A DNA stretch of 49,634 bases from an uncultured Microcaldota archaeon (GTDB taxonomy: Archaea > Micrarchaeota > Micrarchaeia > Norongarragalinales > CAINOH01). The stretch spans positions 1-49,634 of the forward strand of contig CAINOH010000014.1 in assembly GCA_903851445.1 (NCBI GenBank), written 5' to 3'. The notes beneath the pieces are model-generated. The model had not been told where the DNA came from. It saw nothing but the letters and a program-made list of their open reading frames with translations, and ran no database searches. This document shows positions 2,129 to 44,111 of the stretch, in pieces. Position 1 is the stretch's first letter, and every line of letters starts with the position of its first letter. A program made the position numbers and the translations under genes.

Positions 2129-2274
2129 GCAGGGGTGGCAGAGCTTGGTCAAATGCGCAGGACTTAGATGAATGTCCCCGGAATGAATGGGAGCGGAAAA
2201 CCAAGGCGCTTCCGGTGATTTTCCGAGAAATCCTGTGCCTTAGGGCTGCAAGGGTTCAAATCCCTTCCCCTGCA
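2129..2274 (+). tRNA. tRNA-Leu (anticodon TAG) with an intron
   Basis: The acceptor arms GCAGGGG and CCCCTGC pair perfectly, with discriminator A73. The anticodon stem is CAGGA/TCCTG around the spliced loop CTTAGAA, giving anticodon TAG. The long variable arm fits a class II leucine tRNA. The T arm is AAGGG TTCAAAT CCCTT. An insertion of about 61 nt interrupts the anticodon loop after position 37. A T-run from 2276 to 2282 probably ends transcription. Splicing would need the archaeal splicing endonuclease and RtcB; RtcB is encoded at 35.5-38.4 kb in this window. Confidence 0.93.
2169..2229 (+). other. Archaeal tRNA intron (position 37/38)
   Basis: The boundaries are set by restoring a 7-nt anticodon loop and 5-bp stem; one or two bases of slippage are possible. 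The insert contains an internal hairpin formed by CCGGAA and TTCCGG. The exact bulge-helix-bulge geometry was not verified. Confidence 0.8.
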
Positions 2275-7249: not shown

Positions 7250-7879
7250 ATGGATTTGTGCAAGACGTGCGGCACGTGGCAGCAGGCGATTGCTGACCCG
7301 AACAGATTCTTTTCAAAGTCAAAGATGAAACCGGACCTGTCCACTGCGGTAAAGTGGGCAGTGATTGGGGGAGTCGTCAGCGTCTTTCTCAACGAGCTCG
7401 TGCTTCTTGTCAATTCAAAGACCGACATCGCAAACGCCATAGTCAGCATTCTAGTCAGCGGCGCTATAATGATGCCGTTGCTCCTGCTCATATCCTCAGG
7501 GGTCCTGCTATTGTTTGCGAAGCTTCTAGGCGGAAAGGGCGCCTATAACGTCCAGACTTACGCGATGGCAGCAATACAAGCGCCATTGTCAATAGTTACT
7601 GCGATCGTTGCGTTCGTGTTCGACATCCTGTTCGCGCCAACAAGCTACCTGTATGGTATGCCCATTCGCACGGGCGGCACGGGAATCGTATACGGGTTCC
7701 TGAGCTTTGTGATAATGCTGTACGGGCTCTACATGATGGTGATGGCGTTCCGGAGCGTCCATAAGTACAGCACCATGCGTGCAATCGGGACTTTGCTGGT
7801 GCCGGCAGTGCTTATAGGAATCCTTGCCGCGCTTGCCGCGATGTACCTTACCATTGCAGGCTATTCGATGGCTGCCTGA
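7250..7879 (+). CDS. Yip1-domain-like polytopic membrane protein
   Basis: 209 residues. A short cytosolic N-terminus with two Cys (LCKTCGTWQQAIADPNRFF) leads into five hydrophobic helices. The pattern is typical of Yip1/DUF1282 proteins: an initial 'DPxxFF' segment, a helix near residue 35, then LLLFAKLLGGKGAYNVQTYA between helices 2 and 3. The C-terminal helices include GFLSFVIMLYGLYMMVMAF. Yip1-like proteins in prokaryotes are of unknown function. An AAAGGTGAT site lies directly before the ATG. The EGF-repeat gene follows 17 nt downstream on the same strand and may be co-transcribed. Confidence 0.75.
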   Translation: MDLCKTCGTWQQAIADPNRFFSKSKMKPDLSTAVKWAVIGGVVSVFLNELVLLVNSKTDIANAIVSILVSGAIMMPLLLLISSGVLLLFAKLLGGKGAYNVQTYAMAAIQAPLSIVTAIVAFVFDILFAPTSYLYGMPIRTGGTGIVYGFLSFVIMLYGLYMMVMAFRSVHKYSTMRAIGTLLVPAVLIGILAALAAMYLTIAGYSMAA

Positions 7880-7896: not shown

Positions 7897-8802
7897 ATGG
7901 AGAACGACAAAAGCAAGGGCCAAGTTTCATACCTAGTGCTCGGCGCGCTGGTTGCGCTTGCAGTCGTCGCCTATGCGGCTTACTCAAACGTCCAGGTCAG
8001 GGCATCCGTTGCAACCGCGCTTGGCCTTGCAACTACGAACCCGCTTTGCCTCCACGGAAAGCTTGCTGCTGACAACGTGACCTGCAACTGCCTTTCCGGA
8101 TGGAACGGGACTGCCTGCAGCCAGCCGATTTGCAACTCTTCGTGCAACCACGGCTCGTGCGTTGCCCCCAGCACCTGCGGCTGCCAACCCGGCTGGTCCG
8201 GGGCGCAGTGCACCATTCCCGTCTGCACACCGGAATGCATAAACGGCTTGTGCGCCGAGAACCACACCTGCCAGTGCGCGAAGAACTGGCAGGGAGTGTC
8301 CTGCAACGTCCCGTTGTGCGACAAGCCCTGCATGCACGGGAGCTGCCAGAACGACCGCTCCTGCCTGTGCGACGACCTGTGGTCCGGGCAATACTGCAAC
8401 ATCACCCAGTGCAAGCCCGAATGCAAGAACGGCTCCTCGTGCAACGAGCAGCACGCCTGCGAATGCAAGCCAGGGTTTGCCGGAGCAGACTGCTCAACAG
8501 TGTTTTGCGAGCCTGAGTGCGTGCGCGGGACGTGCAACGAGAACCGCACGTGCACCTGCCCAAGCGGCTGGAACGGCACTGCCTGCGACGTTCCGGTATG
8601 CACGCCTTCTTGCGGCCACGGCACTTGTTCGGAAAGCCACCAGTGCGAATGCGAGCCCGGATGGGACAGCAACGGCGCCACCTGCAACAACCCGGTTTGC
8701 GACCCGTCGTGCCTGCACGGCGCGTGCAGCGAGAACCTGACCTGCGCCTGCAACGCTGGCTGGAACGGCACCGCCTGCGACGAACCGGTTTCAGCTGCCT
8801 GA
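7897..8802 (+). CDS. Membrane-anchored protein with EGF/tenascin-type Cys repeats
   Basis: 301 residues. One N-terminal transmembrane helix (YLVLGALVALAVVAYAAYS, about 12-30) is followed by one partial and seven complete ~31-residue repeats to the C-terminus. Each repeat fits CxxxCxxGxCxxxxxCxCxxGWxGxxCxxPV; examples are CTPSCGHGTC, CECEPGW and CACNAGWNGTAC. This spacing is the EGF-like/tenascin pattern, with six cysteines forming three disulfides in known proteins. Topology would place the repeats outside the cell, suggesting adhesion or cell-cell contact. EGF arrays are common in animals and rare in archaea, so transfer or independent amplification is possible. The start is the ATG at 7897 right before the helix; no strong ribosome binding site is seen. 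Confidence 0.85.
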   Translation: MENDKSKGQVSYLVLGALVALAVVAYAAYSNVQVRASVATALGLATTNPLCLHGKLAADNVTCNCLSGWNGTACSQPICNSSCNHGSCVAPSTCGCQPGWSGAQCTIPVCTPECINGLCAENHTCQCAKNWQGVSCNVPLCDKPCMHGSCQNDRSCLCDDLWSGQYCNITQCKPECKNGSSCNEQHACECKPGFAGADCSTVFCEPECVRGTCNENRTCTCPSGWNGTACDVPVCTPSCGHGTCSESHQCECEPGWDSNGATCNNPVCDPSCLHGACSENLTCACNAGWNGTACDEPVSAA

Positions 8803-8870
8803 TTAAAGGTTAATATTTGGAAAAGGCATAAATCTACTAAGAGCAGGTCGCAGCCGTTGCCTTGATTCAT

Positions 8871-9812
8871 ATGAAAAATATTGCCTTTAGCCTGTGCGTC
8901 GCCCTTGCGTTCGTTCTACTTGCAGGATGCGCCCAGCCTGCTGTAACCGCCACGCCGGAGCCAACAGCAGCAGCTACAGTGACGCCAACTGCTGCTTACC
9001 ACAAGCCGGTCATAGTTGTCACCACGTATTTCCTTGAGGACTTCGCAAGGCAGGTCGCAGGCGATGGAGCGACAGTAGTGAACCTGCTTCCCGATGGAGC
9101 CAACCTGCACACGTACGAGCCTAGTCCGAAGGATCTGGAACTCATCAACTCAGCTGACATTTTCGTGTTCAACGGAGCTGGTCTCGAACCTTACGCCGAG
9201 AACGTCGCAAAGTCGCTTCCGAAAACCGTCCGGGTAGTGGAAGCCTCCGCAGGGCTTACGCTCGTTGAGTCGGGTGACAAGGACTACGGGCTCTACGACC
9301 CGCACGCGTGGCTTGACCCGATGATGGCAAAGAGGGAACTCATATGGATTCAGAACGCGCTGATTTCAGCGGACAGCAAGAACTCCGAATACTACCAGGC
9401 GCGCACTTCAGCATACTTCACCTCGCTGGACGAGCTTGACGCCTACATCGAAAACAGGACCGCCAACCTGTCAAGCCGCGAGTACATAGGCTTCCACCCG
9501 GCGTTCACCTACTTCAACGCAAGGTACAACCTCTCTTACGCCGCTGTAATCGAGGAGTTCGCGGGCGACGAGCCGAGCGCGCAGGAGATGGCGCGCATTG
9601 TCGACACCGCGCGGGCAACCAACATCCGCACAGTCTTTGCCGAGCCGTTCCTTGACCCACGGGCTGCGAACGCGATTGCAAAGGAAATCAACGGCACTGT
9701 TGAGATTCTCAACCCTTTGGAAACGCTTACCGCAGAGGACCGCGCGAATGGCAAGGATTATCTGTCCGTGATGCGTGAAAATGCTGACACGCTCTCAAAG
9801 GTGCTTTCGTGA
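8871..9812 (+). CDS. znuA: Zinc/manganese ABC transporter substrate-binding lipoprotein
   Basis: A cluster A-I (ZnuA/TroA-like) metal-binding protein of about 313 residues. A signal peptide ends in lipobox LLAGC, so it would be lipid-anchored. An Ala/Thr/Pro-rich linker follows, then the binding protein fold. Metal ligand motifs are GANLHTYEPSPKD, DPHAWLDP, and GFHPAFTYF, with a late acidic ligand near AEPFLDPRAANAI. No His-rich loop typical of many ZnuA proteins is present, so zinc versus manganese is undecided. The ATG at 8871 is preferred to an upstream TTG at 8862. Its stop overlaps the start of the ATPase gene, so the two are translationally coupled. Confidence 0.92.
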   Translation: MKNIAFSLCVALAFVLLAGCAQPAVTATPEPTAAATVTPTAAYHKPVIVVTTYFLEDFARQVAGDGATVVNLLPDGANLHTYEPSPKDLELINSADIFVFNGAGLEPYAENVAKSLPKTVRVVEASAGLTLVESGDKDYGLYDPHAWLDPMMAKRELIWIQNALISADSKNSEYYQARTSAYFTSLDELDAYIENRTANLSSREYIGFHPAFTYFNARYNLSYAAVIEEFAGDEPSAQEMARIVDTARATNIRTVFAEPFLDPRAANAIAKEINGTVEILNPLETLTAEDRANGKDYLSVMRENADTLSKVLS

Positions 9813-10582
9813 AAAAGGCAGCCCGCCAAGACAGCCGCACTGTCCTTGATTTTGACAACATCTCGTTCTCCTACGCAGGCGAGCCCACGATTGAAAACGT
9901 CTCTTTCGCAGTACAAAAGGGCGACTTCTTGGGGATAATCGGGCCGAACGGCGCTGGGAAGAGCACGCTGTTCAAGATTGCGCTTGGCCTGGAAAAGCCG
10001 ACCTCCGGCAGCGTGAAGCTCTTTGGGAAGAAGCAGGCTGATTTTTCCGACTGGCACCGCATCGGGTTCGTGCCGCAAAAAGTGCAGTTCGACCCCAATT
10101 TTCCGGCAAGCGTTTTCGAAGTGGCTGCAATGGGCCTTGCCCAAAAGCCGGGGCTGCTGATGCTTTCCGACGAACAGAAATGCGCAGTGAAAGAGGCCTT
10201 GCACGAAGTTGGATTGGAAAATCAAGCGGACAAGCGGATAGGCGAGCTTTCAGGAGGCCAGATGCAAAGGGCTTTCCTCGGCCGCGCCCTTGTTGCAAAG
10301 CCAGACCTTTTGCTGCTTGACGAGCCGACTACCGGGATAGACTCGCAGCAGCAGGAGAAGTTCTGCTGCCTCCTTGAGCGGCTCAACAAGGCGGGAATAA
10401 CGATAGTCATCATCTCGCACGACCTCACGTTCATGTCCTACCTTGTAAACAAGGTAATCTGCCTCAACCGCAGGGTGTTCTTCTGCGGCCACCCAAAAGA
10501 CATTTCTAAAAGCGGCGCGCTGCCAAAGGCGTACGGCCACGCAGTGCACGCGATTACGCACGACCACGAGCATGGCGCTTGA
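9809..10582 (+). CDS. znuC: Metal ABC transporter ATP-binding protein
   Basis: 257 residues with a complete ABC ATPase core: Walker A GPNGAGKST, Q-loop VPQKVQ, signature LSGGQMQR, Walker B LLLLDEP and the H-loop IISHDL. The sequence belongs to the ZnuC/MntB-type ATPases that energise cluster A-I metal importers. The GTG start overlaps the last codons of the binding protein gene by 4 nt. The C-terminus ends in a His-rich stretch (HAVHAITHDHEHGA) that could bind metal. The permease gene follows after 19 nt. Confidence 0.95.
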   Translation: MKKAARQDSRTVLDFDNISFSYAGEPTIENVSFAVQKGDFLGIIGPNGAGKSTLFKIALGLEKPTSGSVKLFGKKQADFSDWHRIGFVPQKVQFDPNFPASVFEVAAMGLAQKPGLLMLSDEQKCAVKEALHEVGLENQADKRIGELSGGQMQRAFLGRALVAKPDLLLLDEPTTGIDSQQQEKFCCLLERLNKAGITIVIISHDLTFMSYLVNKVICLNRRVFFCGHPKDISKSGALPKAYGHAVHAITHDHEHGA

Positions 10583-10601
10583 AAAGAGAAGATGACAGAG
10601 A

Positions 10602-11405
10602 ATGCTTGAGCTTTTTTCCTATACTTTCATCCAGAACGCCTTTTTTGCGGGCACAATAGTTGCGGTAATCTGCGCGGTGCTAGGCCTGTTCATCGTGCTG
10701 CGCAAGCTCTCGTTCATGACCGACGGCATCGCCCACGCGAGCCTTGCTGGGATTGCCGCTGCGATAGCGCTCAAGGCCGACGTGCTGCTAGTGACCGGCA
10801 CGGTCGCGTTCCTTGCGGCTTTGGGAATCAACCGCATCCGCGAAAAGATGAAGATCTCGGGTGATGCGGCAATCGGCCTGCTTCTTCCGGTTGGCCTTGC
10901 AACTGGTATCGTCCTGCTTTCGCTTGCGCACGTCACAAGCGTGGATTTGATGTCCTATCTTTTCGGAAGCATCCTCGCAATCACAAGCTCGGACCTGCAG
11001 TTCATAGTAATATTCGGCGCAATCGTCCTCGTGGCTGTTGCAGTGCTGCGAAAGCAGATGTTCTACATCGCTTTTGACGAGGACAGCGCCAAGGCAAGCG
11101 GCTTGCCCGTGTCCGCAATCAACTACGTGTTCTTTGGCCTGGTTGGCATCACGGTTGTTCTTGCGCTCAGGGTTGCGGGGATAATGCTCGTCTCAGCATT
11201 GATGATCATCCCGCCGCTTTCCGCGCTCCAGCTCAAGAAGGACTTCACAACCACTCTTGTCCTCTCCGCTGCCTTTGGAATCCTCTCGGTGTGGGTTGGG
11301 ATAATCGCGTCCTATTATTTGGGAGTTGCAACGGGGGCTGCGATTGCGCTCTCGAGCTTTGCGCTATTTTTGGCTGCGTCTGCGGCGAAACGACTGAAGC
11401 TTTGA
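10602..11405 (+). CDS. znuB: Metal ABC transporter permease (ABC-3 family)
   Basis: 267 residues with about eight hydrophobic helices and the ABC-3 family signature. MTDGIAHASLAGIAAAIAL lies near residue 40, IGLLLPVGLATGIVL near 95, and the ATPase-contacting region includes AFDEDSAKASGLPVSAINY. It forms the membrane channel of the importer with the two preceding genes. Only one permease gene is present, as expected for a homodimer. A short GC-poor intergenic region with no clear regulator site follows. Confidence 0.95.
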   Translation: MLELFSYTFIQNAFFAGTIVAVICAVLGLFIVLRKLSFMTDGIAHASLAGIAAAIALKADVLLVTGTVAFLAALGINRIREKMKISGDAAIGLLLPVGLATGIVLLSLAHVTSVDLMSYLFGSILAITSSDLQFIVIFGAIVLVAVAVLRKQMFYIAFDEDSAKASGLPVSAINYVFFGLVGITVVLALRVAGIMLVSALMIIPPLSALQLKKDFTTTLVLSAAFGILSVWVGIIASYYLGVATGAAIALSSFALFLAASAAKRLKL

Positions 11406-14404: not shown

Positions 14405-16834
14405 CTACCAATCCATCGGCTTTTTCCAAGCCGCCTTGAGTTTTGAAACGTCAGCATCAATCGCATTCTTTCCTGCAAGCCCAGCCACAGTTAATTTCCT
14501 GTCCGCAGTAACCGCGCCTATTTTTGCAACCGGCAGGCCCTTGAACTTTTCCTCAAACTTTGAAGCGTTTGCAGGCTCGACCTCAACTACAAAGCGCGAG
14601 TTGGACTCCGCAAACAGCACGAAATCGTCGCGTTTTTCTCCCTCGTAAATGACTTTGCCAAGTGAAATTTCTGCGCCAATCTCAGAGCCAAAGCACATTT
14701 CTGCAACCGCCACGGCCAAACCGCCTTCGGAGCAGTCGTGGCAGGCGCGCACGAGCCCTGCGTTGATTGCCGAGTGCATTGATTCGAAAATCTTTTTGGA
14801 TTCTTTGGCATCGACTTTCGGTGCGTTTCCACCGTCTACGCCCTTTCTGTAATAATACTGCGAGCCCCCGAGCTCCTCGAAAGTCTTTCCAACAAGGTAA
14901 ATGGCGTTCCCTGCTTTCTTGAAGTCAGCAGTGACGCACTTGCGCACGTCCGGCACCTTCGCTGCAGCGCTAATCAGGAGCGTGGGCGGGATTGCGATGG
15001 TGCGGTCAGCGAGCTTGAACTCGTTGTGCAGGCTGTCCTTGCCGCTCACAAACGGGGTCAGGTACTCGACTGAATAATCGTAACAGGCCTTGCACTCCTC
15101 GACAATGTCGCCGAGGTTTTCCGGGTTCTTCGGGCTTGGGGCGCAGAAGTTGTCCAAAAGGACGGTCTCACTAGGGTTTCCACCCACGCAGACCACGTTC
15201 CGCAGGGCTTCGTTGATTGCACTTGCCGCCATCGCGTAGGCGTCAATTGTGCCGTAAAGCGGGTTCAGGCCGTTTGCAACAGCTATCCCCTCGTAGGACT
15301 CCACAAACGGCTGAAGCACAGACGCGTCGCCGTGTCCGTCCATCCGCTTTCCGTTCATCGACTTGATTACATTGTGCGCCTGCACCTCGTGGTCGTACTG
15401 CCGCACTGTCCACTCCTTGGAACAGGTGTTCCAACCGGAAAGAAGGGAGATTAATTCGGAGGTGATGTCCTTTGGAGCAGAAATCTTCTTTGCGTCCTTT
15501 GCATTTCCAGTTGCAGCCGCAAACTCCTTTGCCTTTCTTTTCCTTGCAGCCATCTTCTTCCTTGGAACTTCCTTGTGCAGGAAACCACAGTCCAAGTCGC
15601 AGATTACGTCGGCGCCGTGCTTGACTACGATGCGTCCGGTGCCGGTCATCTTGCCGATTACAACTGCCTGCACGTTCTCGCGCCTGAAAAGCTCGACAAG
15701 TTCGGCTACTTTTTCCTGCGATACTGAAAGAATCATCCTCTCCTGCGACTCGGAAACCCAGATTTCCCAAGGCTTGAGCCCCTTGTACTTGAGCGGAGCC
15801 TTCTCAAGCCAAACTTCGCACCCAAGGATTTCCGCCATCTCCCCAACAGCTGACGAGAAGCCGCCTGCGCCGCAGTCGGTCACGAAATTGTAAAGTCTCT
15901 TGTCACGCGCCTGCAAAAGCCCGTCCATTACCTTGCGCTCCTCAATCGGGTTGCCGATTTGCACTGCGCCGGTGCAGGCGTTGGCATCAAGTTCGATTGA
16001 CGAGAAGGTTGCGCCGTGTATTCCGTCGCGTCCGGTTTCCGCACCAACCGTGACTATTGCATCGCCTTTCTTGGCGGCCTTTTCGTGCATCCCCCGCGGC
16101 ATGAAGCCGCCCGTACCGCAGAACACCAATGGAGCGCCAAGGTAGTTCTCGTGGAAATAATACCCGCCGTTGATTGTGGGGATGCCCATCGGGTTGCCAT
16201 AGTCGCGGACTCCGGCCACTACCCCGCGAAGTATGCGCTTTGGGGCAAGAATTCCCTCCGGAACTTTTGCAGAATCAAAATCCGGTGGTGCAAGGCAGAA
16301 TACGTCTGTGTTGAAGTAGGGCTTTGCGCCAAGGCCCGCACCCAAGACGTCACGGATGACCCCGCCGACTCCGGTGTTCGCGCCTCCGAACGGGTCGAGT
16401 GCGGACGGGTGGTTGTGGGTCTCGGCCTTGAACGCGAAATCGTACTTTTCATTGAACTTGACTATGCCCGCGTTGTCCTTGAATATCGAAACCAGCCATT
16501 CCTCCCCGCGCTTTCCAAGCTTTGCTTTTATGTCAAGCGTGGCCTTGCGAATCAACGAACTAAAGAGACCGTCGATTTTCTCAATCTTTCCAGAGCCGTT
16601 GTCGTATTCAACCTCTGCTGTGAAGGTCTTGTGCTTGCAGTGCTCGCTCCAAGTCTGGGCAACAGTCTCAAGCTCGGCCTGCGTCGGGTTTCTTCCAAGT
16701 TTCAAAAAGTGGTCCTGGACCTTTTTCATCTCAACAGCATCAAGAGAGAGGAGCATTGATTGCGAAAGCTGGACAAGGCCGTCGGAGTCGAGGTCCAAAA
16801 AGTGAACTGCTTTCTCGTTTTCCATTCTTATCAT
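14405..16834 (-). CDS. purL: FGAM synthase large subunit (small-type PurL)
   Basis: 809 residues, slightly longer than the ~720-780 of most small PurL enzymes. Key regions are TWSEHCKHKTF, AFKAETHNHPSALDPFGGAN, RDVLGAGLGAKP, HGATFSSIELDA and CHDCSEGGLAVAVAEM. It uses ATP and ammonia to turn FGAR into FGAM, in complex with PurS and PurQ. A Lys/Ala-rich insert around 450-475 (RKKMAARKRKAKEFAAATG) is not part of the usual core and probably forms a surface loop. The start could be ATG 16834 or 16825; neither has a strong ribosome binding site. It is 9 nt after purS. Confidence 0.95.
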   Translation of the reverse strand: MIRMENEKAVHFLDLDSDGLVQLSQSMLLSLDAVEMKKVQDHFLKLGRNPTQAELETVAQTWSEHCKHKTFTAEVEYDNGSGKIEKIDGLFSSLIRKATLDIKAKLGKRGEEWLVSIFKDNAGIVKFNEKYDFAFKAETHNHPSALDPFGGANTGVGGVIRDVLGAGLGAKPYFNTDVFCLAPPDFDSAKVPEGILAPKRILRGVVAGVRDYGNPMGIPTINGGYYFHENYLGAPLVFCGTGGFMPRGMHEKAAKKGDAIVTVGAETGRDGIHGATFSSIELDANACTGAVQIGNPIEERKVMDGLLQARDKRLYNFVTDCGAGGFSSAVGEMAEILGCEVWLEKAPLKYKGLKPWEIWVSESQERMILSVSQEKVAELVELFRRENVQAVVIGKMTGTGRIVVKHGADVICDLDCGFLHKEVPRKKMAARKRKAKEFAAATGNAKDAKKISAPKDITSELISLLSGWNTCSKEWTVRQYDHEVQAHNVIKSMNGKRMDGHGDASVLQPFVESYEGIAVANGLNPLYGTIDAYAMAASAINEALRNVVCVGGNPSETVLLDNFCAPSPKNPENLGDIVEECKACYDYSVEYLTPFVSGKDSLHNEFKLADRTIAIPPTLLISAAAKVPDVRKCVTADFKKAGNAIYLVGKTFEELGGSQYYYRKGVDGGNAPKVDAKESKKIFESMHSAINAGLVRACHDCSEGGLAVAVAEMCFGSEIGAEISLGKVIYEGEKRDDFVLFAESNSRFVVEVEPANASKFEEKFKGLPVAKIGAVTADRKLTVAGLAGKNAIDADVSKLKAAWKKPMDW

Positions 16835-30226: not shown

Positions 30227-33073
30227 CTAAGCGCGCTTGACGGACTTATTTCGTTCCGCAAAGAAGTAAGCCAGCGCGCCAACCGCGCTTCCAAGCACGA
30301 TTATCAGGGCCCAGGCCAGGCGGCCAAAGCGCGCGAACTCCTTGCGCGTCAGGCAGTCCCACAGCATCCACGCCCAGAAGACAAACAGCACTAGTAAGGC
30401 CAGGGGTACGGCAACCAGCGCGGCCAGGACCAACAGCATAGTGACGGGGTCAACGTCCTTCGCGGGCTGGTTTCCGCTTGTCTGGAGGTATGTAATGTTG
30501 ATGTCATTCGTGTTCATGTCGGTAAACCGGCTCGCGTTCAATGTTGAAAGGACGGAAGGCGGCAGGTAAACAGTTGCGTTGGCCAGAAAGTCAAGCGCCA
30601 GGCGCGAGTATCCCAGCGCAGCGGAGTAATTGCCCTTCACAGTCGCGCTGGAGACCGCCTGCAGGTATTCCTTGACGGCCAAAAGTTCCGCCTGGCCAGT
30701 ATCGCTTCTGAAGTGCCAGCCCATCCCTTCCAAATCTTTGCGCACCTTCAGCTGGTTGTCGGCGTATCCGCCTGCATCCGCAGCCAGCGAGTTGAGTGCC
30801 GGGCCGGTGTAGGCTTTCAGGAGAGCGACGCTTTCGTTTTCCTTTCCTGCTCCGTATAGAGAAAGGGCGTTTGCAGAGACCGCTGCGCCTTCGTACTCGT
30901 CGCACCAGCTCTTCCGCTCATTCAGCCACCCGAGCCTCGTTTCCAGCTCCTTCTTGTATTGCGCCGCAAGCAACGCGTATTGCAGCTGCCTGAAGAACTC
31001 TCCCTGCACAGAAAGGAGCGACGGGTCTAAAACCTGGTAGGATATGCTCGTGTTCGTCTCGTAATCCGGGTCAGTAGTCATATAGGCGTAGTGGTAGCCT
31101 TCCTCGCTTTCGGTCCCCACGCCCTCGTATTCGGCTACGCGGCGGTTGTCTGCAATGGCAAAATAGTCGGAAAGGCTTGTAGCCCACGTCGTGTCAACAG
31201 GCAGCCAGCGTCCCTGCAGGTAGGCTTCGTCCCAGGCGTGGCCATCTGCGGTTGTTTCGTTGTTTTGCCAGAGCGCCCAGCCTGAAACGTACCGTACGGG
31301 GATGTTGTCAGCCCTTGCAAGCGCGGCATAGAGGGTGGCGTACCCAAAGCACACGCCGACGCGGTTTTCGAGCGTTGGAATCGCGCCTTTGGACTGACTC
31401 AAGGAATGGTCGTAGCGGATGTTCTTTCGCATCCAGTTGTACAGGCCAAGCGCGTCAGCAGCGGGCCGGCCTTCAGTGTTCTGCCTTGCGACGGCCTGGA
31501 TGCGAGAATCCAGCGACTCTATGTTGGCCGCACTCTTGGTGTACTCGGTGGCTTGCGGGGTTTCGTTCTGCGTAAGCGGAAGCATCGAAAAGTAGTCTAT
31601 CCCGGCGGAGAACACTATGTAGTTTACGGAGATGTTCAGGCTCTTGCCTTCGTCCAGGTTGCCAACCACCCAGGTCGCGTAGAGGTTTCCCGCGCCATCC
31701 TGGCGTTGGTACTGCGGCGGGGAAGAAAATGACTTGAGCCAGGCGAAGGTGTTCGTGTCGTTGCGCAGAAGGGAGAGTGTGACGTTGAAGCCGCTCATCG
31801 TTCCCGGGCCCCTGTTGCGGAAGTAGAAAGTCTTGGTGAAGTTGTAGAGCCGCGGCTTCTGCAGGATGTACGGCGCGTCAGGCTGGTTGCACTGGATGGT
31901 AAAATTGGACGAATGCGGCTCCATTTTCGCCCCAGAATTGTCCTGCACGCCGGCTGCTGAAAGGAAGTACGTGCCTTTCCCAAGGGGCTCGTCAGGCACG
32001 AACTCGAGCTTGTTGATGGTGCTTTTGAACACGTGGCCGGCCACGGTGCCGCTCCCATTGCTTAGGAAAATGCTAGTCTGGTTTATGCTCCCAACGGGCT
32101 TGTTGAAGAAAAGCCCGACTACCGGCCTTATTGATGAGATGTTCTGCCCTGCGTCAGGCTTTGTGGCAATGACTTTCAGTGCCTCCGAGTCAACAGCCGG
32201 TTTTGCGCCATCACAAGTCCCGTTTGCATCGAACGATGATTGGAAGGATGGTGGAATCACCTGGAGGGAGTAGTTGTTTTTAGTATGGAATCCCCAGACG
32301 AACAAGTCGCCCGCGTAGGCGCTTGCTTTGAAGTTGCTGCCATTTGCCTCAACAGAAAATGACGTGTGCTTGTAGTCAACCACACTCTCCTGCACCATCA
32401 CCACCGTTGCCGTGTCCTGTAAGTCAAAGTCCGCGCCGCCTTGCAGGACGTTTACAAGCTGCACGCCGTCGTCCTTGTCTGCAAGCAGGAAAACGGTGCT
32501 GTCAGGATGCAAAAGTACGGTATTTCCGCCGGAAGTTATGGTCAGAGATCCTGTTGACTGGGCTTCGATTATGTAGCCGCTGGTTGTTTCAGTCACTGAA
32601 GTAAGGGACAGTGTGCCGGGAATTGCAGTATCTGCAGTTGCCTGGCTCACCACCTGGTCGTAATCATCCTGCAGGTCGGCAATCTCCTGGTTCGCCTGCT
32701 CTATTCCGGACTGCGCCGATGCAATCAAGCCGGACGCCGTTCCAGCCTGTTCCGCTACGCTTTGCGTGCCCGGCATCCCCGGATGAAAGAGGTCATCACC
32801 GGTGAATTGAATCTGGTTTTGCACTAGCGTTGAAAGCTCGTTATTCTTCAGCGCCAGGTCCTCCAGCTGGCTTATGACATCGTCCCGGGCCTGTTCCCAT
32901 AACTCGATGTCCTTCAAAATCTGCGCCAGCGTATTCTGGTCCTCAACAGTCAGGTATGCCGCATTGCCGTGGATGACGTCCACGGTCACTTCTGTTTGCC
33001 TGCCTGTAGCCTGCACGCTCGAAGCGAATGCCAAAAAACAGAATAGAACCAGGGCAACGGCTCTTTTGTCCAT
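30227..33073 (-). CDS. Large secreted membrane protein with transglutaminase-like domain
   Basis: 948 residues. Order: signal peptide (ALVLFCFLAFASSVQA); a coiled-coil stretch rich in Gln, Glu and Asp (~45-155); a FecR-like beta region (~170-265); an Ig-like Big_5-type domain (RPVVGLFFNKPVGSINQTSI); a beta region; a transglutaminase-like domain; a helical region; and two C-terminal membrane helices (VPLALLVLFVFWAWML, LAWALIIVLGSAVGALAYFF). The catalytic triad is present: Cys near 575 in RVGVCFGYATLYAAL, His near 612 in DGHAWDEAY, Asp near 626 in WLPVDTTWA. The domain would face outward. The ATG at 33073 is preferred to a GTG at 33088 because it starts the signal peptide. Targets are unknown. 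Confidence 0.85.
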   Translation of the reverse strand: MDKRAVALVLFCFLAFASSVQATGRQTEVTVDVIHGNAAYLTVEDQNTLAQILKDIELWEQARDDVISQLEDLALKNNELSTLVQNQIQFTGDDLFHPGMPGTQSVAEQAGTASGLIASAQSGIEQANQEIADLQDDYDQVVSQATADTAIPGTLSLTSVTETTSGYIIEAQSTGSLTITSGGNTVLLHPDSTVFLLADKDDGVQLVNVLQGGADFDLQDTATVVMVQESVVDYKHTSFSVEANGSNFKASAYAGDLFVWGFHTKNNYSLQVIPPSFQSSFDANGTCDGAKPAVDSEALKVIATKPDAGQNISSIRPVVGLFFNKPVGSINQTSIFLSNGSGTVAGHVFKSTINKLEFVPDEPLGKGTYFLSAAGVQDNSGAKMEPHSSNFTIQCNQPDAPYILQKPRLYNFTKTFYFRNRGPGTMSGFNVTLSLLRNDTNTFAWLKSFSSPPQYQRQDGAGNLYATWVVGNLDEGKSLNISVNYIVFSAGIDYFSMLPLTQNETPQATEYTKSAANIESLDSRIQAVARQNTEGRPAADALGLYNWMRKNIRYDHSLSQSKGAIPTLENRVGVCFGYATLYAALARADNIPVRYVSGWALWQNNETTADGHAWDEAYLQGRWLPVDTTWATSLSDYFAIADNRRVAEYEGVGTESEEGYHYAYMTTDPDYETNTSISYQVLDPSLLSVQGEFFRQLQYALLAAQYKKELETRLGWLNERKSWCDEYEGAAVSANALSLYGAGKENESVALLKAYTGPALNSLAADAGGYADNQLKVRKDLEGMGWHFRSDTGQAELLAVKEYLQAVSSATVKGNYSAALGYSRLALDFLANATVYLPPSVLSTLNASRFTDMNTNDINITYLQTSGNQPAKDVDPVTMLLVLAALVAVPLALLVLFVFWAWMLWDCLTRKEFARFGRLAWALIIVLGSAVGALAYFFAERNKSVKRA

Positions 33074-33136
33074 AAACGCGTTACGCACCGGCGGTTAAAG
33101 AAACTGACGGGTGGAAAGCCACAGCCTGCCGGCGGC

Positions 33137-35525: not shown

Positions 35526-38408
35526 TCATCCTTTGATTACGCCAAGCGGGACCATCTTTGCGACAATAGTGCTGATTCCCGCCTGCTCCACTGAGTCTAC
35601 GACTGCGTTGATGTCCTTGTATGCGCCGCCGTACTCTTCGGACACGAGTTCGGACTCGGCAACCTTGATGCTCACTCCGGCCTTTTCCATCTCTGCAAGT
35701 ATTTTGGCTGAGCTGAAGTCGCGCTTTGCCTGGGAGCGGCTCATGACGCGGCCCGCGCCGTGGCAGGAGCTTCCGAAGGTCTTCCTGCTGCCTTCCGCGC
35801 CGCAAAGCAGGTAGGAAGCGGAATTCATCGAGCCCGGGATGATGACCGGCTGGCCTACTGGGCGGTAAGCCTGCGGGATTAGCGGGTTTCCGGGCCAGAG
35901 GGCGCGCGTTGCGCCCTTGCGGTGCACGCAGACTTTCCTCTTCTTGCCATCGACTTCGTGCTCCTCGAACTTTGCGATGTTGTGGCAAACGTCGTAAACC
36001 AGTTCCATCCCGTAGTCTTCCCACTTTCCTCCGAACACCTGCGCGAAGGTCTGGCGCGCAAGGTGGGTCATCACCTGGCGGTTGTTGAATGCGAAATTGA
36101 CTGCACAGCGCATTGCACCCAGGTAGTCCTGCGCCTCCGGGCTTTGGATTGGCGCGCAGCAAAGCTCGCGGTCTGCCAAGTCAATGCCATATTTTGCCTT
36201 TGCAGCAGGAAGCATCGTGCGCAAATAGTCGTCGCAAATCTGGTGCCCCAGGCCGCGTGAGCCCGAGTGAATCATTACCGTGATTTGCCCTTCGCCCGTA
36301 ATCCCGAACGCCTTGGCCTTCTCGGCATCGTAGACTTTCTCTACTCTCTGCACTTCAAGGAAGTGGTTACCGCTGCCGAGCGTGCCGAACTGGGGCGCGC
36401 CCCGCTTCTTTGCCATGTCCGAGAGCTTGGAAAAGTCAGCGCCGTCAAAGCGGCCGTTCTCTTCACAGTGCTCCTTGTCAGCCTCAACAGCATAGCCTTT
36501 GCCTATGCACCAGTCAACGCCTTCGGTGACTGCCCTGCCAAGCTCGGCAACTTCAAGCCGGGTGCGGCTCTTGCTTCCGACTCCGCTCGGGATGTTTGCA
36601 AAAAGCGCCTTTACTAGGTCGTTGATTTTCGGCCGGACGTCCTTTTCGGTCATATTGGTGCGTATGAGCCTGATTCCGCAGTTCGAGACCACGAACCCGT
36701 CGGCAACGAAGTTGTGCGTCTTTGCAACTGTGATGTCGTAGACATCGTCATCGTAGGGTATCTCCTGGATTGACGCAATGGAATCAAACTGCGTGCCATG
36801 CTCGAAAACAACCGCAAGCTCGTCTTTGGTGAACTTTTCAAAAGACGTGAAATTCAGGGTTATCCGCTGGCCTGCTTTTTCGTAATAGTGCCTGCCTATG
36901 AACCGGGCGTTGATGGAACTGTTGCACAGAAGCGACTGAACTTCCTTCAAGGTAAGGCCCTTTGCGCGAAGCTCCTTTGCCTTTCCTGCAGCCCGTATCC
37001 TCACCGCAGTAAGCGCTTTCTTGCGGAGGATATACTTGACCGCGACTCCTGCGAGGGCGGACTTCTTGGAGCTGTATTCGAAACCAATCAACCGGTAAAG
37101 CCGCAGGAGGTTGTCCTCTTCAGCGGATATTTCCAGCCTCAGCCGCACGGTTTCGCCCTGCTTGTTCACAAACTCGTCGCGTTGGGCAATCTTGGTAACG
37201 CTTACTTGGGCTGCTTCCTCCAAAAGCTGCATCAGTTGCACCATGAACTTCCGGCAGGATTCCGCGTGCGTCTTGTTCTTGTTCTGCCCCAAAACCGGGG
37301 CGTTAAAACCAGTCTTTGTATGTACCGAAGGAGAGGTGAGCTCGGCGCCGAAGAAGCCTGCGATGAAAAGCCGCTTTATCCACGCGGGCGTTGCCTTGGC
37401 GGTTATCCAATTTGGTATTGAATAGTCCTGGTCCGTCTTCCTGCCCAAGGGCATTCCAAGGGATAACAACAACTTGCAGAAGTCCTTGGAATAAACATGC
37501 AACTCTGTATTTGTTGAGGTAAACGCCTTTTCCCCGTATTGGCTCGTGATTTTATGCGCCCTGGTGCGCTGAAAGATTGATGATTTGACGCCAATGCTTG
37601 AAAGGTCGGCCTGAATGCGCTCGAGGTCTGGCCTTGTGCCGTAAGCCATTGCACGCAAGTTCTTTCCGCAATAAGTGAGTATCCCGTCGCCGAACATGTA
37701 GCCGAGGAACTTGGCGATTACTGCCGCTTTTTCAACTGACATGCCTGACTCGGAGGTGAAGGGGGCGTCGTCGATTCCTTCAAAAAAGTTCACTGCAACC
37801 TCGTCGTTCTCGCGTAGGCTTCCTGCCTGCACCATTCCTTTCGGGGTGAGGATTGGATGGTCTTCGCTCAGCTTGATGCTCAACCCTGAAGCGGTGGAAA
37901 CCTGGAGTATGCGGCGGTCCTTCCTCTTTTTCATGAACGCGAGTACCGGGCTTGAAGAGAACACCTTTGAGCCTGAGTCAAGGCTGGTAACTGCAAGCAA
38001 AGCCGCCTTTTGAAGCCCTAAAACGTATGCGCCTGCGTTTTCCATCCTTGAGAAGTTGCCTTCAATTGCCTCTATTGGGATTCTCCTGCCAAAACCATCG
38101 AGGATTTTTGAGTCCTTGCAAAGGCAGTTAATGTCATATCCGACACCGCCGGGCGAGACCACGCCTTCCTCCAGGTCAAATGCCGCTACCCCGCCGATTG
38201 GGAAGCCGTAGCCTTCGTGGCCGTCGGGCATCACCATCACTGCATCGAGGACTCCGGGGAGCGTGGCCACGTTTGCTGCCTGCGAAAGCGTGCGGTCGGT
38301 GAGCATCTTCTCAAAGATTGCGTCGTCGCCGTACGCGCGCACGGGCACGCGCATCTTCCCTTCGGGTTTTGCCTGCCTGGTGCAGGGACCGACTTTTTGA
38401 AAATCCAT
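35526..38408 (-). CDS. rtcB: RNA-splicing ligase RtcB containing an intein
   Basis: 960 residues: extein 1-94, intein 95-576, extein 577-960, giving a mature ligase of 478 residues, normal for archaeal RtcB. RtcB joins 2',3'-cyclic phosphate or 3'-phosphate ends to 5'-OH ends using Mn2+ and GTP, and ligates tRNA exons in archaea. Motifs: VMPDGHEGYGFPIGG, GVVSPGGVGYDIN before the intein and CGIRLI after it, LGSGNHFLEVQ, MIHSGSRGLGHQIC and SSCHGAGRVMSR, which contains the guanylylated His. The first extein residue after the intein is the metal-binding Cys (Cys98 in Pyrococcus), so the enzyme is inactive until splicing. Two nucleotidyltransferase-like genes follow directly. Confidence 0.96.
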   Translation of the reverse strand: MDFQKVGPCTRQAKPEGKMRVPVRAYGDDAIFEKMLTDRTLSQAANVATLPGVLDAVMVMPDGHEGYGFPIGGVAAFDLEEGVVSPGGVGYDINCLCKDSKILDGFGRRIPIEAIEGNFSRMENAGAYVLGLQKAALLAVTSLDSGSKVFSSSPVLAFMKKRKDRRILQVSTASGLSIKLSEDHPILTPKGMVQAGSLRENDEVAVNFFEGIDDAPFTSESGMSVEKAAVIAKFLGYMFGDGILTYCGKNLRAMAYGTRPDLERIQADLSSIGVKSSIFQRTRAHKITSQYGEKAFTSTNTELHVYSKDFCKLLLSLGMPLGRKTDQDYSIPNWITAKATPAWIKRLFIAGFFGAELTSPSVHTKTGFNAPVLGQNKNKTHAESCRKFMVQLMQLLEEAAQVSVTKIAQRDEFVNKQGETVRLRLEISAEEDNLLRLYRLIGFEYSSKKSALAGVAVKYILRKKALTAVRIRAAGKAKELRAKGLTLKEVQSLLCNSSINARFIGRHYYEKAGQRITLNFTSFEKFTKDELAVVFEHGTQFDSIASIQEIPYDDDVYDITVAKTHNFVADGFVVSNCGIRLIRTNMTEKDVRPKINDLVKALFANIPSGVGSKSRTRLEVAELGRAVTEGVDWCIGKGYAVEADKEHCEENGRFDGADFSKLSDMAKKRGAPQFGTLGSGNHFLEVQRVEKVYDAEKAKAFGITGEGQITVMIHSGSRGLGHQICDDYLRTMLPAAKAKYGIDLADRELCCAPIQSPEAQDYLGAMRCAVNFAFNNRQVMTHLARQTFAQVFGGKWEDYGMELVYDVCHNIAKFEEHEVDGKKRKVCVHRKGATRALWPGNPLIPQAYRPVGQPVIIPGSMNSASYLLCGAEGSRKTFGSSCHGAGRVMSRSQAKRDFSSAKILAEMEKAGVSIKVAESELVSEEYGGAYKDINAVVDSVEQAGISTIVAKMVPLGVIKG
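36681..38126 (-). other. RtcB intein with LAGLIDADG-type endonuclease domain
   Basis: 482 residues from Cys1 (CLCKDSKILDG) to Asn (FVVSN), followed by Cys+1 of the extein. Block B is LSEDHPILTPKG; the endonuclease helices are FLGYMFGDG and FIAGFFGAE; block F is VYDITVAKTHNFVADG. The penultimate residue is Ser rather than the common His, which may slow Asn cyclisation. The insertion site, between YDIN and CG, is the one reported for the Pyrococcus RtcB intein. The second LAGLIDADG motif lacks the usual second Asp, having Glu, which can still be catalytic. Confidence 0.92.
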
Positions 38409-38900: not shown

Positions 38901-41063
38901 ATGGTGCATCAAATGAAACCCCACGTCAGGCGCGTCCTTGCGCTGTTCCTTTTCCTCTCGGCCTTTGCAGGCGCGGTTGTCATGATGGCGCCTGCTGTTG
39001 ATGACCAGGAGCACGGCATACTGACCGCAATAAACGTCGAGGTCGCCCCCGGAAGCGGGGAACTGGTGCTGCGGCTCCACTCGACTACGGTGAACGCGGA
39101 CACGCAGGACTCCATGCAGACCGCGTTTTCCGAGGCCGCAAAGCTTGCGCAGAGAAACTACGATTCCTACGATTACACCGTGCACTTTGACAGCGCGCTT
39201 GGGAAGATCAGCGGCCCGAGCGCCGGCGCTGCTCTCACAATAATGACGTATTCGGAATTTACCAAAAAGAAAATCCGCGATGACTTCATAATAACCGGCA
39301 CCATCATAAAAGGCGGCGCAATAGGCGCTGTTGGCGGGGTGAAGGCCAAGATTGATGCTGTCGGAGCAAACGGGAGCTACAAGGTAATGTGCGTGCCAGC
39401 AGGCGAGACTGCAGAGTCGGGCGAGAGCATACTCGACTCGCTTTACTATGCCGACTACGCGATGCAGAAGTACAACCTGACAGTTGTCGCGGTTTCGAAC
39501 GTCTCCTATGCAATCAAGATTGCAACGGGCGAAATCGAGCCGCCCGCACAGGCAAATTCAACTGAATTTGTCCCAAGGGAGTACCTTGCATCCAACTCGT
39601 CCTGGCCGTTCTATGCAATATCGCAGTCCACCATTGACGACTCGGAGTCCTCCGGACGCGCTTCGCAACTTTCGGACCTGCAAAAGAGGGCCTTCGAGCG
39701 CCTGCTTGCAGAGTCCAGGCTCCAGCTCTCGCTGGGCTACTATTACTCTGCCGCGAACACCGCATTCCTTGTAAAGAACGCGGTTTCAACCGAGGAGTTC
39801 CGCAACATGACCGTGCAGCAGTTCCGCGCAGTTGCGAACAACTTCCACGAGGAACTTTTGACTATGGAATTTTCAGCCCTGAACTCCACAAACTGGGAGT
39901 GGGTGGCAACATCAGAGATGCGCTATACCTGGGCCAGGCTGCGCACCGAGGGCGTACTCGCCAAGCTCAACTCCAACGCGTCAATAGACAGCACCGCGCT
40001 TTCGAACATGGCAAACGACCTGTCAGCTGCGATGGGATGGTATGACGCCGCCAAGATGCTCAACAACGGCTCGGCGCCCAGGAACGGCCAGAACCTGATG
40101 CCACAGGACAAGGCGAAGTTCGAGGCGGAAAAGTACATCGGCCTGGTTGAGGATGCAGTCAACAAGACAACCACCCTTGACACGGAGATTACCAGCCACC
40201 TGAACTCGTCCAAGGAGCTTTACTCGCAGGGGAGGTACTACGCGGCGATGCTTGACGCGTCCTACTCGTACGCATACATGGCTGTTGAGCGCGCGCTCGT
40301 ATCGCAGATTTCCACGTCGGATGACGCCCTGGCGGAATCCGGGCTGTACGCTGCCGGAGTGATGAACGAGGTCAGCGCCTACCCGAGCTTTGCAGACCGG
40401 ACGACCCGCGCTGGCTGGGCCGACCTTTTCTACGCCCACGCTTACTACAACTACCAGCGCGGGAAGGAGAACTCAGAGTACGGCTCGTATGTCAATGCGC
40501 TCAAGCTGGCAGCGCTTTCCGACGCGTTCCAGCGCGTGTCCGACTTTGCCTATGGGGAGGCGTTCGTGCTGCCCGCTAATGTTTCTGCAGTATCATTGGG
40601 GCAGCTTACCGAGCCCACCCTGCTCCCAACGCTCCCGGGCACCAAGGAACAGACAATCATCATAATCGGCCAGGATGGCGATGAGACGAACCCAACTGAA
40701 AACAACACTTCAATCAACACCACCATCTCGGTGCGGCCGGATGCAAACCCCTCGGTGGCGCTACTCGGCGCACTCCTGCTTGCCCTCCTTCTTGTGGCAG
40801 TCCTCACCGTTTACCTCATTAGCCGGCGCAAGTCGGTGCGCTCCAAGTCCGAACTGGACGCGTTATATGCAAGCGGGAAGATGAACAGGAAAAGGTACGA
40901 TTCACTGAACGCGCGGTACTTCCCGAAAAAGCAGGACTCCGCAGCAACCTCGCCGCGCTGGAACGAGGAAATTTCTGCGCCGCCCGTGCGGTTCAACAGC
41001 AAGAAGGCGATTGCGCTGCCGCCTGCTGCGCCGGGAAGGAAGCGCCTGTACAGGAAGCAGTAG
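38901..41063 (+). CDS. Membrane-anchored S16 (Lon-like) serine protease
   Basis: 720 residues. N-terminal signal/anchor (VLALFLFLSAFAGAVVMM, 12-29), then a Lon proteolytic domain to ~200: catalytic Ser107 in GPSAGAALTIM and Lys148 in GAVGGVKAKIDAV form the Ser-Lys dyad. A long helical region (~230-600) rich in Tyr and Ala follows, then a Thr/Asn linker, a second membrane helix (VALLGALLLALLLVAVLTVY) and a short SHOCT-like tail (KSELDALYASGKMNRKRYDS). No AAA+ module is present, so it is not LonB itself. It may degrade or process exported proteins. The gene downstream is convergent (SpoIIM-like). Confidence 0.88.
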   Translation: MVHQMKPHVRRVLALFLFLSAFAGAVVMMAPAVDDQEHGILTAINVEVAPGSGELVLRLHSTTVNADTQDSMQTAFSEAAKLAQRNYDSYDYTVHFDSALGKISGPSAGAALTIMTYSEFTKKKIRDDFIITGTIIKGGAIGAVGGVKAKIDAVGANGSYKVMCVPAGETAESGESILDSLYYADYAMQKYNLTVVAVSNVSYAIKIATGEIEPPAQANSTEFVPREYLASNSSWPFYAISQSTIDDSESSGRASQLSDLQKRAFERLLAESRLQLSLGYYYSAANTAFLVKNAVSTEEFRNMTVQQFRAVANNFHEELLTMEFSALNSTNWEWVATSEMRYTWARLRTEGVLAKLNSNASIDSTALSNMANDLSAAMGWYDAAKMLNNGSAPRNGQNLMPQDKAKFEAEKYIGLVEDAVNKTTTLDTEITSHLNSSKELYSQGRYYAAMLDASYSYAYMAVERALVSQISTSDDALAESGLYAAGVMNEVSAYPSFADRTTRAGWADLFYAHAYYNYQRGKENSEYGSYVNALKLAALSDAFQRVSDFAYGEAFVLPANVSAVSLGQLTEPTLLPTLPGTKEQTIIIIGQDGDETNPTENNTSINTTISVRPDANPSVALLGALLLALLLVAVLTVYLISRRKSVRSKSELDALYASGKMNRKRYDSLNARYFPKKQDSAATSPRWNEEISAPPVRFNSKKAIALPPAAPGRKRLYRKQ

Positions 41064-42429: not shown

Positions 42430-43380
42430 TTATTCCAACGCAACCTTGGCGCAATAATCCAGGATTGCATCCGCGTCCGAAAACTTGCCCCGCGCGCCGC
42501 CGACTTTCTCGTGCCCGCCGCCGGAGCCGCGGATTTTCCTTCCGACTTTCTGCATCAGGATGCCCACGCTCTTTCTTGCCGAGTCCGACCTTGCTGCAAG
42601 GACTATTCCCTTCTGTTCATCAGCCACAAAGGCATAGTCGGCTCCCAGGCTGACAAGTCCTACTGCGCACTGCAGGTGGAACGCGTCCGAGGTCGAGGTG
42701 GCGACTACGATTCCCGACTTTTCTGTGACCTTGGCCTTTGCCGCGCACGCGATTTTCTTCTTGGCCATCTCCGGGTTTGCAGGCCGCTCGAGTAGTGAAA
42801 GTATCTTCGGGTAATCTTGCCTGCTCCTTCCTGCAAGCTTGAGAAGCCGCGCCATTGCCTCGAACGAGTCGTCGTTTGCGCTCTTCCAGTGCGCAGTATC
42901 CGAGGCTATGCCGGCTGCAAGGAACATAGCTGTCTTCTTGTCCGCTTTCTTTCCAGCTGCGTCCAGGATTCCGAGTGCAATCTCGCTGGTGCTTGAGATT
43001 GACGGCAATTCAAGCGAGAAGTCCGCCTTCATCCTGTCCGAGTGTACGTGATGGTCAAAGAAGGCGACCTTGCCCTTAAAGAGTCCTATTGCATCCGCCC
43101 ATTTTCCGAACGAGTCAAGGGTGCAGGCGTCGGCTATTAAGACGTTGGAGTATCCGTCCAACGACTCAATAGGGGCTATTGCAAGGCCGAGGCTCTTGAG
43201 GACCGCCTTTGCCTGCGAGTTGACTTGGCCTGTTGCGCGGACTTCGCAGTTGCGCACAAGCAGGCTCAATGCAATCGCGCTTGCAACAGCGTCCGGGTCG
43301 GCAATTTCCTGGAAGGTAATCAGTGTCCTGCCCTTTAGAGTGGAGAGGAACGCTACTGCCTTTGCGAACTTCTTTTGCAT
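42430..43380 (-). CDS. DHH-family phosphoesterase
   Basis: 316 residues. DHH domain motifs: DPDAVASA (variant of DADxxxS), DACTLDSF, FFDHHVHSD and GIASDTAHW. The DHHA1 substrate-binding motif is RGSGGGHEKVGGARG near the C-terminus. The arrangement matches NrnA/RecJ-like phosphoesterases that degrade short oligonucleotides or related phosphodiesters using Mn2+. It lacks extra domains of full RecJ. It starts just upstream of the prefoldin terminator and is transcribed away from it. Confidence 0.88.
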   Translation of the reverse strand: MQKKFAKAVAFLSTLKGRTLITFQEIADPDAVASAIALSLLVRNCEVRATGQVNSQAKAVLKSLGLAIAPIESLDGYSNVLIADACTLDSFGKWADAIGLFKGKVAFFDHHVHSDRMKADFSLELPSISSTSEIALGILDAAGKKADKKTAMFLAAGIASDTAHWKSANDDSFEAMARLLKLAGRSRQDYPKILSLLERPANPEMAKKKIACAAKAKVTEKSGIVVATSTSDAFHLQCAVGLVSLGADYAFVADEQKGIVLAARSDSARKSVGILMQKVGRKIRGSGGGHEKVGGARGKFSDADAILDYCAKVALE

Positions 43381-43400
43381 GAAAGAAGGAAAGTAAGGGA

Positions 43401-43431
43401 AATAGAAAAAGAAGCCGGTTTGGAAACCGGC
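43401..43431 (-). terminator. Hairpin terminator after the prefoldin gene
   Basis: On the minus strand GCCGGTTTCC and its complement form an eight-base stem with almost no loop (GCCGGTTT...AAACCGGC), followed by TTCTTTTTCTATTT. It lies about 27 nt after the prefoldin stop. Confidence 0.7.
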
Positions 43432-43457
43432 CGAACTGGCACAGCCGCTTTACTGCC

Positions 43458-43811
43458 TTAGACCACGCCGGTCTGCTTGGTCGCAGCCTCGAGCTTCTTC
43501 ACAACCTCGGTGAGGCTTGTCTTGAGCTTTTCCTCCTGCTTTGCGAGGATGTCCTTGCGCATCTTCAGAGTCTCGGCCTCCTCGGCAAGCTCCTTTAGAA
43601 GCTCGTCCTTTGTGCGGGGCACCATTATGCTTCCTGCAAGCCTGTAGATTTTTCCGGACTTGTCCGCCTTTGCAAGTGCATCCTGGCCGCGCTCAACCTC
43701 TGCCGCACTAAGCTCCATCTGCTGGCGCTGCATCATCACCATCTGGAGCTGCTGCTGCATCCGCTGGTAGTTCTCGTAGTCTTTTTGCAAGTCTTCCTGT
43801 GTGGTTGCCAT
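43458..43811 (-). CDS. pfdB: Prefoldin beta subunit
   Basis: 117 residues, the standard length. Two long coiled-coil helices (QKDYENYQRMQQQLQMVMMQ and KDELLKELAEEAETLKMRKD) flank the beta hairpin around ADKSGKIYRLAGSIMVPR. Prefoldin is the archaeal hexameric chaperone that hands nascent proteins to the thermosome. AAAAAAGGTG lies 9 nt before the ATG at 43811; an in-frame GTG at 43823 overlaps that site and is less likely. It follows the Pcc1-like gene by 21 nt, an order common in archaea. Confidence 0.93.
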   Translation of the reverse strand: MATTQEDLQKDYENYQRMQQQLQMVMMQRQQMELSAAEVERGQDALAKADKSGKIYRLAGSIMVPRTKDELLKELAEEAETLKMRKDILAKQEEKLKTSLTEVVKKLEAATKQTGVV

Positions 43812-43832
43812 AACTTCAAACACCTTTTTTCG

Positions 43833-44111
43833 TCAAACGTCATTTTCCTCTTCAATTACTTTCCTCTGCGGCCGTCCTGCAACCGCGTCAATCACATCGT
43901 AGGTTATCCGCGCGCTTCGCAGGAAGCTCGTCGAGAGCGCCCGCAAGCCGGCAAACGATTCCGACTCCGCGATTGCAAGGATTCTCTTTCCGGAAAGCCT
44001 TGACTTGAGCGTGCCTTTGATTGTTGTAAGGTCCTTTTTCAGCACCGCAAAGGCCTTTTTCGCCTCGGCTTCTGAGGTAAAGTCAAGCTCGAACTCCGCC
44101 TTGAAGGCCAT
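43833..44111 (-). CDS. KEOPS complex Pcc1-like subunit
   Basis: 92 residues. FELDFTSEAEAKKAFAVLKK and RILAIAESESFAGLRALSTS, followed by FLRSARITYDV, match the CTAG/Pcc1 fold. Pcc1 forms the dimerisation core of KEOPS, which makes the t6A modification of ANN-decoding tRNAs with Kae1 and Bud32; those genes are not in this window. The position directly before prefoldin beta is a conserved archaeal arrangement. The C-terminus is acidic (KVIEEENDV). Confidence 0.78.
   Translation of the reverse strand: MAFKAEFELDFTSEAEAKKAFAVLKKDLTTIKGTLKSRLSGKRILAIAESESFAGLRALSTSFLRSARITYDVIDAVAGRPQRKVIEEENDV

Follow-up and report, generated by a model that had tools for sequence, protein, structure and literature searches.

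On the surfaces of animal cells, EGF arrays are the usual modules for contact. The window analysed here, an entire contig of 49,634 nucleotides from an archaeal genome assembly (1.09 Mb in 25 contigs, 81% complete, 0.9% contaminated), raises the question of whether an archaeon encodes such an array and, if so, how the protein might be anchored, folded and used. An open reading frame with an ATG start and no internal stop codons codes for a protein with the following parts (the slash marks the candidate cleavage site):

7897-8802, plus strand: EGF-array protein, 301 aa; open reading frame with Pfam EGF families above cut-offs and genome-like codon usage
7897-7920, plus strand: charged N-domain MENDKSKG with a candidate prepilin-peptidase site KG/Q after residue 8, proposed from motif enrichment; cleavage putative
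7921-7986, plus strand: hydrophobic helix QVSYLVLGALVALAVVAYAAYS, residues 9-30, sole membrane segment by hydropathy
8047-8130, plus strand: partial EGF repeat r0, residues 51-78, four Cys, lacking Cys1 and Cys3 in the alignment
8131-8223, plus strand: EGF repeat r1, residues 79-109
8224-8316, plus strand: EGF repeat r2, residues 110-140
8317-8409, plus strand: EGF repeat r3, residues 141-171
8410-8505, plus strand: EGF repeat r4, residues 172-203, one additional residue between Cys2 and Cys3
8506-8598, plus strand: EGF repeat r5, residues 204-234
8599-8697, plus strand: EGF repeat r6, residues 235-267, two additional residues between Cys5 and Cys6; part of the r6-r7 model
8698-8790, plus strand: EGF repeat r7, residues 268-298; part of the r6-r7 model

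The preliminary description of this locus had reported seven six-cysteine repeats and one partial repeat behind a single N-terminal helix; the reading frame, the hydropathy profile and the cysteine alignment show that coordinates and counts are correct. The only hydrophobic stretch (residues 10-28, mean Kyte-Doolittle value 2.27) lies in the N-terminal part, and the protein, which is the richest in cysteine among the ORFs of the genome (46 Cys), ends three residues past r7 without any further domain. All six cysteines are present in each of the seven full repeats, and the spacing C-x3-C-x4-C-x5-C-x-C-x8-C is exact in five of them, the exceptions being r4 (x5 for x4) and r6 (x10 for x8). Four residues link Cys6 of one repeat to Cys1 of the next. 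EGF modules contain disulfides 1-3, 2-4 and 5-6, Cys1 thus pairing with Cys3. Repeat r0 retains Cys2, 4, 5 and 6, the partners of disulfides 2-4 and 5-6; since exactly Cys1 and Cys3 are missing, one disulfide would be lost while the cysteine count stays even, and their joint absence is what the alignment would be expected to show for a disulfide-bonded EGF module. The mean identity between repeats is 43%; r5-r7 are closest to one another (52-65%), perhaps reflecting a later duplication at the C-terminal end of the array. Inspection of the repeats did not reveal a calcium-binding EGF consensus.

Searches against Pfam assigned the protein to EGF families far above the curated cut-offs, eight of which were exceeded. 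The matches included EGF_TEN (8.5e-34), EGF_DL_JAG (2.3e-28), EGF_PEAR1L (8e-26), EGF_Teneurin (5.1e-23), EGF_2 (5.2e-16), EGF (5.2e-8) and hEGF (1.8e-7); at the level of sequence profiles, these E-values exclude a chance resemblance. NCBIfam and PHROGs contained no matching model. Among solved structures, the best sequence matches were WIF-1 (E 4.4e-20), Jagged-1, teneurin-2 and Delta-like proteins, the only relatives found in the PDB being animal proteins, to whose EGF modules the repeats are 34-43% identical. A single-sequence model of the full-length protein was poor (pLDDT 52), but an AlphaFold model of r6-r7, calculated with an alignment of the other non-overlapping repeat pairs as input, reached a mean pLDDT of 86.3. 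In a Foldseek search, EGF pairs from HHIP, DLL1 and Jagged matched this model at probability 1.00, with TMq values reaching 0.81 and an rmsd near 2. The small two-stranded EGF fold is found in the predicted r6-r7 structure as well as in the PDB search. Profiles and predicted structure together make the EGF fold of the repeats well supported. The suggested tenascin-type match needs some modification: profiles, solved structures and the predicted fold support a tenascin/teneurin/Jagged subtype, for which "tenascin" is a name no better than several others, whereas the GWxGxxC ending is a consensus only, with W/F-x-G-x-x-C in six of the seven full repeats and a strict GW in four of seven.

The gene is present in a single copy in its own genome. 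PF25024 matched one of the 301 genomes of the phylum, namely the source genome, and the same holds for PF07974; with the EGF-array protein as query, no other carrier was found among 60 relatives, and a genome-contig collection yielded no whole-protein relative. Among 395 archaeal relatives, one further genome (G353), a distant one from another archaeal phylum, matched weakly. Its protein (L117 1273-2373) contains one EGF_2/EGF_Teneurin module above cut-off, which follows a Thr-rich stretch, and a Dicty_CTDC-like Cys repeat; no EGF match was obtained in the 28 remaining genomes of that phylum. The statement that EGF arrays are uncommon in archaea is thus in line with one carrier in 301 genomes of the phylum and two in 395 archaeal relatives, of which the second has only one EGF; the archaeal sample comprised 419 genomes, a subset of the archaea. 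Within this sample, another archaeon does encode one EGF module, but no second array was found in the 301 phylum genomes or the 395 relatives. Since no relative has a homologue, conservation lends no backing to functional sites or to the N-terminus. A viral or plasmid origin was rejected, because tblastn against phages and plasmids gave no match, viral contigs contained no locus matching the protein or the repeat alignment, and PHROGs lacked a counterpart. A literature search on EGF in DPANN or Micrarchaeota retrieved no paper.

The genes adjoining the array are:

7250-7879, plus strand: Yip1-family membrane protein, separated from the EGF gene downstream by 17 bp (Pfam Yip1, 1.1e-11)
8862-9812, plus strand: ZnuA-like protein of zinc/manganese-type ABC uptake (Pfam ZnuA, 1.6e-74)
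9809-10582, plus strand: ATPase of zinc/manganese-type ABC uptake (Pfam ABC_tran, 1.9e-32)
10602-11405, plus strand: permease of zinc/manganese-type ABC uptake (Pfam ABC-3, 8.1e-66)

Co-transcription of the Yip1 and EGF genes is possible. The zinc/manganese ABC genes directly downstream (8862-11405) are ordinary neighbours. Loci of Yip1 homologues from the same order contained no EGF or zinc-uptake genes, but, spanning only about 3.5 kb, they say little on the neighbourhood. Archaeal-type genes lie on both sides of the EGF gene, with tRNA-Leu and a DRG-type GTPase with TGS domain upstream and RtcB downstream. The EGF gene has no introns, and its codon usage is genome-like (z = +1.7; GC3 0.79 vs. 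a mean of 0.69), with TGC in 45 of its 46 Cys codons (88% TGC in the genome). The archaeal genes on the contig and the genome-like codon usage make contamination unlikely; the presence of STT3 and class III signal matches in the genome (see below) likewise conforms to an archaeal context.

The contig shows further features outside this locus. The tRNA-Leu(TAA) gene (2129-2274, plus strand), which was missed by a default tRNA scan, has a 61-base intron after the anticodon. The RtcB RNA ligase (35526-38408, minus strand) contains an intein, its closest model, NF038162 (RtcB_rel_intein), scoring just under cut-off. For PurL (14405-16834, minus strand), the only matches in the genome collection were from Dehalococcoidia/Chloroflexi bacteria (46-52% identity), suggesting that the gene may have been acquired by interdomain transfer. 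A 953-aa protein (30227-33088, minus strand) with a transglutaminase-like core and a weak Ig-like match is possibly a surface protein. A 720-aa protein (38901-41063, plus strand) has a Lon-type protease domain near the N-terminus and no match to the Lon ATPase domain.

The N-terminus KSKG/QVSYLVLGALVALAVVAYAAYS is laid out like a class III signal of archaea, with a basic residue at -2 (Lys), Gly at -1 and an uncharged hydrophobic run after the cut. When [KR][GA]X preceding an N-terminal hydrophobic run was surveyed in this genome, X was Gln in 31 of 59 ORFs, the other 28 having different residues. Given the Gln background of 3.4%, chance alone would place KGQ before an N-terminal helix in about one ORF. 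Glu occurs at +5 in 22 of the 31 Gln-type ORFs; the EGF-array protein belongs to the nine without it, several of which have Asp or Glu one place off, whereas the EGF-array protein does not. Two Peptidase_A24 (prepilin peptidase) genes and 15 class III signal matches over cut-off (PF04021) were found in the genome, but the EGF-array protein is not among its 28 PF04021 matches, even at E 10. There is about an even chance that KG/Q is a true class III signal. On another contig, many pilin-like genes with class III signals are clustered (G000:C9 39138-44962), and one gene of the cluster, at 43047-44090, encodes a Peptidase_A24.

As to disulfide formation, for which the preliminary description had proposed a search for enzymes, the genome encodes a DsbA-like oxidoreductase with an N-terminal helix and a CPYC motif (C9:426433-427458; Thioredoxin_4 2.4e-24, DSBA 3.3e-17). 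A weak candidate, scoring below cut-off, is a membrane protein (C9:102654-103880) in which a thioredoxin-like stretch contains CPHC, and VKOR was not found in the 81% complete genome. STT3/AglB-type transferase genes are present as well; among 14 control genomes, only the four archaea gave STT3 matches. The ectodomain contains 10 N-x-S/T sequons vs. 3.4 +/- 1.6 expected from shuffles with fixed Cys positions (p 0.0002), although several of the sequons share one of two sites within the repeat, directly ahead of either Cys4 or Cys6, and hence are not independent. The helix is likely to be embedded in the membrane with the repeats outside.

Computation supports the EGF fold, the order of the repeats, the single helix and the presence of the enzyme genes in the genome, and we consider it probable, though by some way short of certain, that the protein is an EGF-only surface rod, extracellular, glycosylated and disulfide-locked, acting as adhesin or spacer. 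The N-terminal helix would insert into the membrane so that its charged end faces the cell interior and the repeats lie outside, where the DsbA-like enzyme might help to form up to 23 disulfides. Disulfides and four-residue linkers would lock the seven and a half modules into a stiff stalk, to which AglB-type transferases may add N-glycans. From EGF rods in general, a length of 15-20 nm is reasonable here, which is enough to cross an S-layer. The array could either hold contacts with neighbouring or host cells or span and space the cell envelope; since no domain follows it, the function must reside in the array itself. A prepilin peptidase may trim the N-terminus at KG/Q, and given this site two placements of the protein are conceivable, one within or attached to a type IV pilus-like assembly and the other as a membrane-anchored monomer. 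We infer export, disulfide formation, glycosylation, cleavage and the contact role from this context, the adhesive function by analogy to the fold class. A contact role is the most plausible guess: elsewhere, contact is mediated by EGF rods, LamG and PKD proteins, and small archaea of this type are thought to be partner-dependent (PMC5498576).

A sharper form of the surface-rod reading, in which a true class III signal is trimmed by prepilin peptidase and a minor pilin or pilus-tip adhesin presents the array on a type IV pilus, is a possibility to be taken seriously, if a tentative one. The KG/QVSYLVLGALVALAVV motif and the excess of Gln over background point to it, as do the 15 class III matches and two A24 peptidases, and eight other KGQ-type ORFs also do without Glu at +5; yet the protein has no acidic residue near +5, is not detected by PF04021, and is adjoined by no pilin or assembly genes. 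Should KGQ have arisen by chance, the protein might be a plain signal-anchored envelope spacer, structural and not adhesive. The one chance case expected would accommodate this, and the array runs to the C-terminus without a recognition head domain, but KGQ is otherwise nearly diagnostic in this genome, and we think this rather doubtful. Combined into one proposal, namely a pilin-type, prepilin-peptidase-processed and glycosylated EGF array, an adhesion module of animal type mounted on a pilus or pilin anchor, through which a probably partner-dependent archaeon makes contact with its host, these elements make an unlikely whole.

Explanations outside the surface-rod reading fare worse. A recent acquisition of the gene from an animal or protist, or contamination of the assembly with eukaryotic DNA, would account for the exclusively animal relatives in the PDB and for the lack of relatives in the same phylum. 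It is improbable in view of archaeal-type genes on both sides, genome-like codons, the absence of introns, and repeats that have diverged from one another to about the same distance as from animal EGFs; this divergence fits an old array, and both an old transfer of the module from eukaryotes and its origin within prokaryotes are possible. The position directly upstream of the ZnuA/ABC genes on the same strand might suggest a cytosolic, metal-binding zinc store tied to zinc uptake, a notion which the disulfide-type Cys spacing, the sequons and the N-terminal helix render hardly credible and which we rejected because EGF profiles and fold fit. The EGF-only surface rod is our preferred reading.

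With regard to the preliminary description, both its observation and the EGF assignment are confirmed, rarity is supported within the sample, and the proposed function appears plausible. The pilin-type KG/Q motif in front of the helix, the surplus of sequons and the specific loss of disulfide 1-3 from r0 go beyond that description. A passage in PMC2770060, citing Ponting 1999, describes the EGF repeats of Notch and Notch ligands as eukaryote-only. The clean array, together with the genome's own disulfide, glycosylation and pilin-processing genes, indicates that an EGF module can be encoded in an archaeon, where it is probably used. For ARMAN-type archaea, a role of laminin-G and PKD proteins in cell contact has been suggested (PMC5498576). 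Partner-dependent small archaea must touch cells via mostly unknown surface proteins, for which the EGF array offers a concrete, short and expressible candidate.

Among known systems, the G353 protein is likewise an apparently secreted archaeal EGF protein, but it has one module among unrelated Cys-rich stretches and no array. The EGFs of WIF-1 (PDB 2ygq) are closest by sequence and those of HHIP (PDB 7pgm) closest by fold (TMq 0.81); these animal secreted or membrane signalling antagonists differ in that their EGFs stand beside WIF or propeller domains. EGF1-3 of Jagged/Delta (PDB 2vj2, 4xbm) share the EGF subtype, the GWxGxxC ending and the tandem array, whereas the archaeal protein has no C2 domain and gave no DSL match in the Pfam scan, which sets it apart from Notch ligands. 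Teneurins have a large beta-propeller, a YD-shell and further domains after the EGFs. Their EGF region (PF25024 EGF_TEN, PF23106; PDB 9g41, 8r54) resembles the array in its tandem six-Cys modules of similar spacing and in having one membrane helix ahead of the repeats, on the N-terminal side (type II-like order); in contrast, the archaeal protein, ending three residues past its last EGF, has neither propeller nor YD-repeat shell nor C-terminal domains. The literature searched contains no report of an EGF ectodomain on a class III signal-peptide protein. Archaeal class III proteins such as pilins and Sulfolobus substrate-binding proteins differ in that PF04021 misses the EGF-array protein, but they share with it the basic-Gly/Gln site before the only helix.
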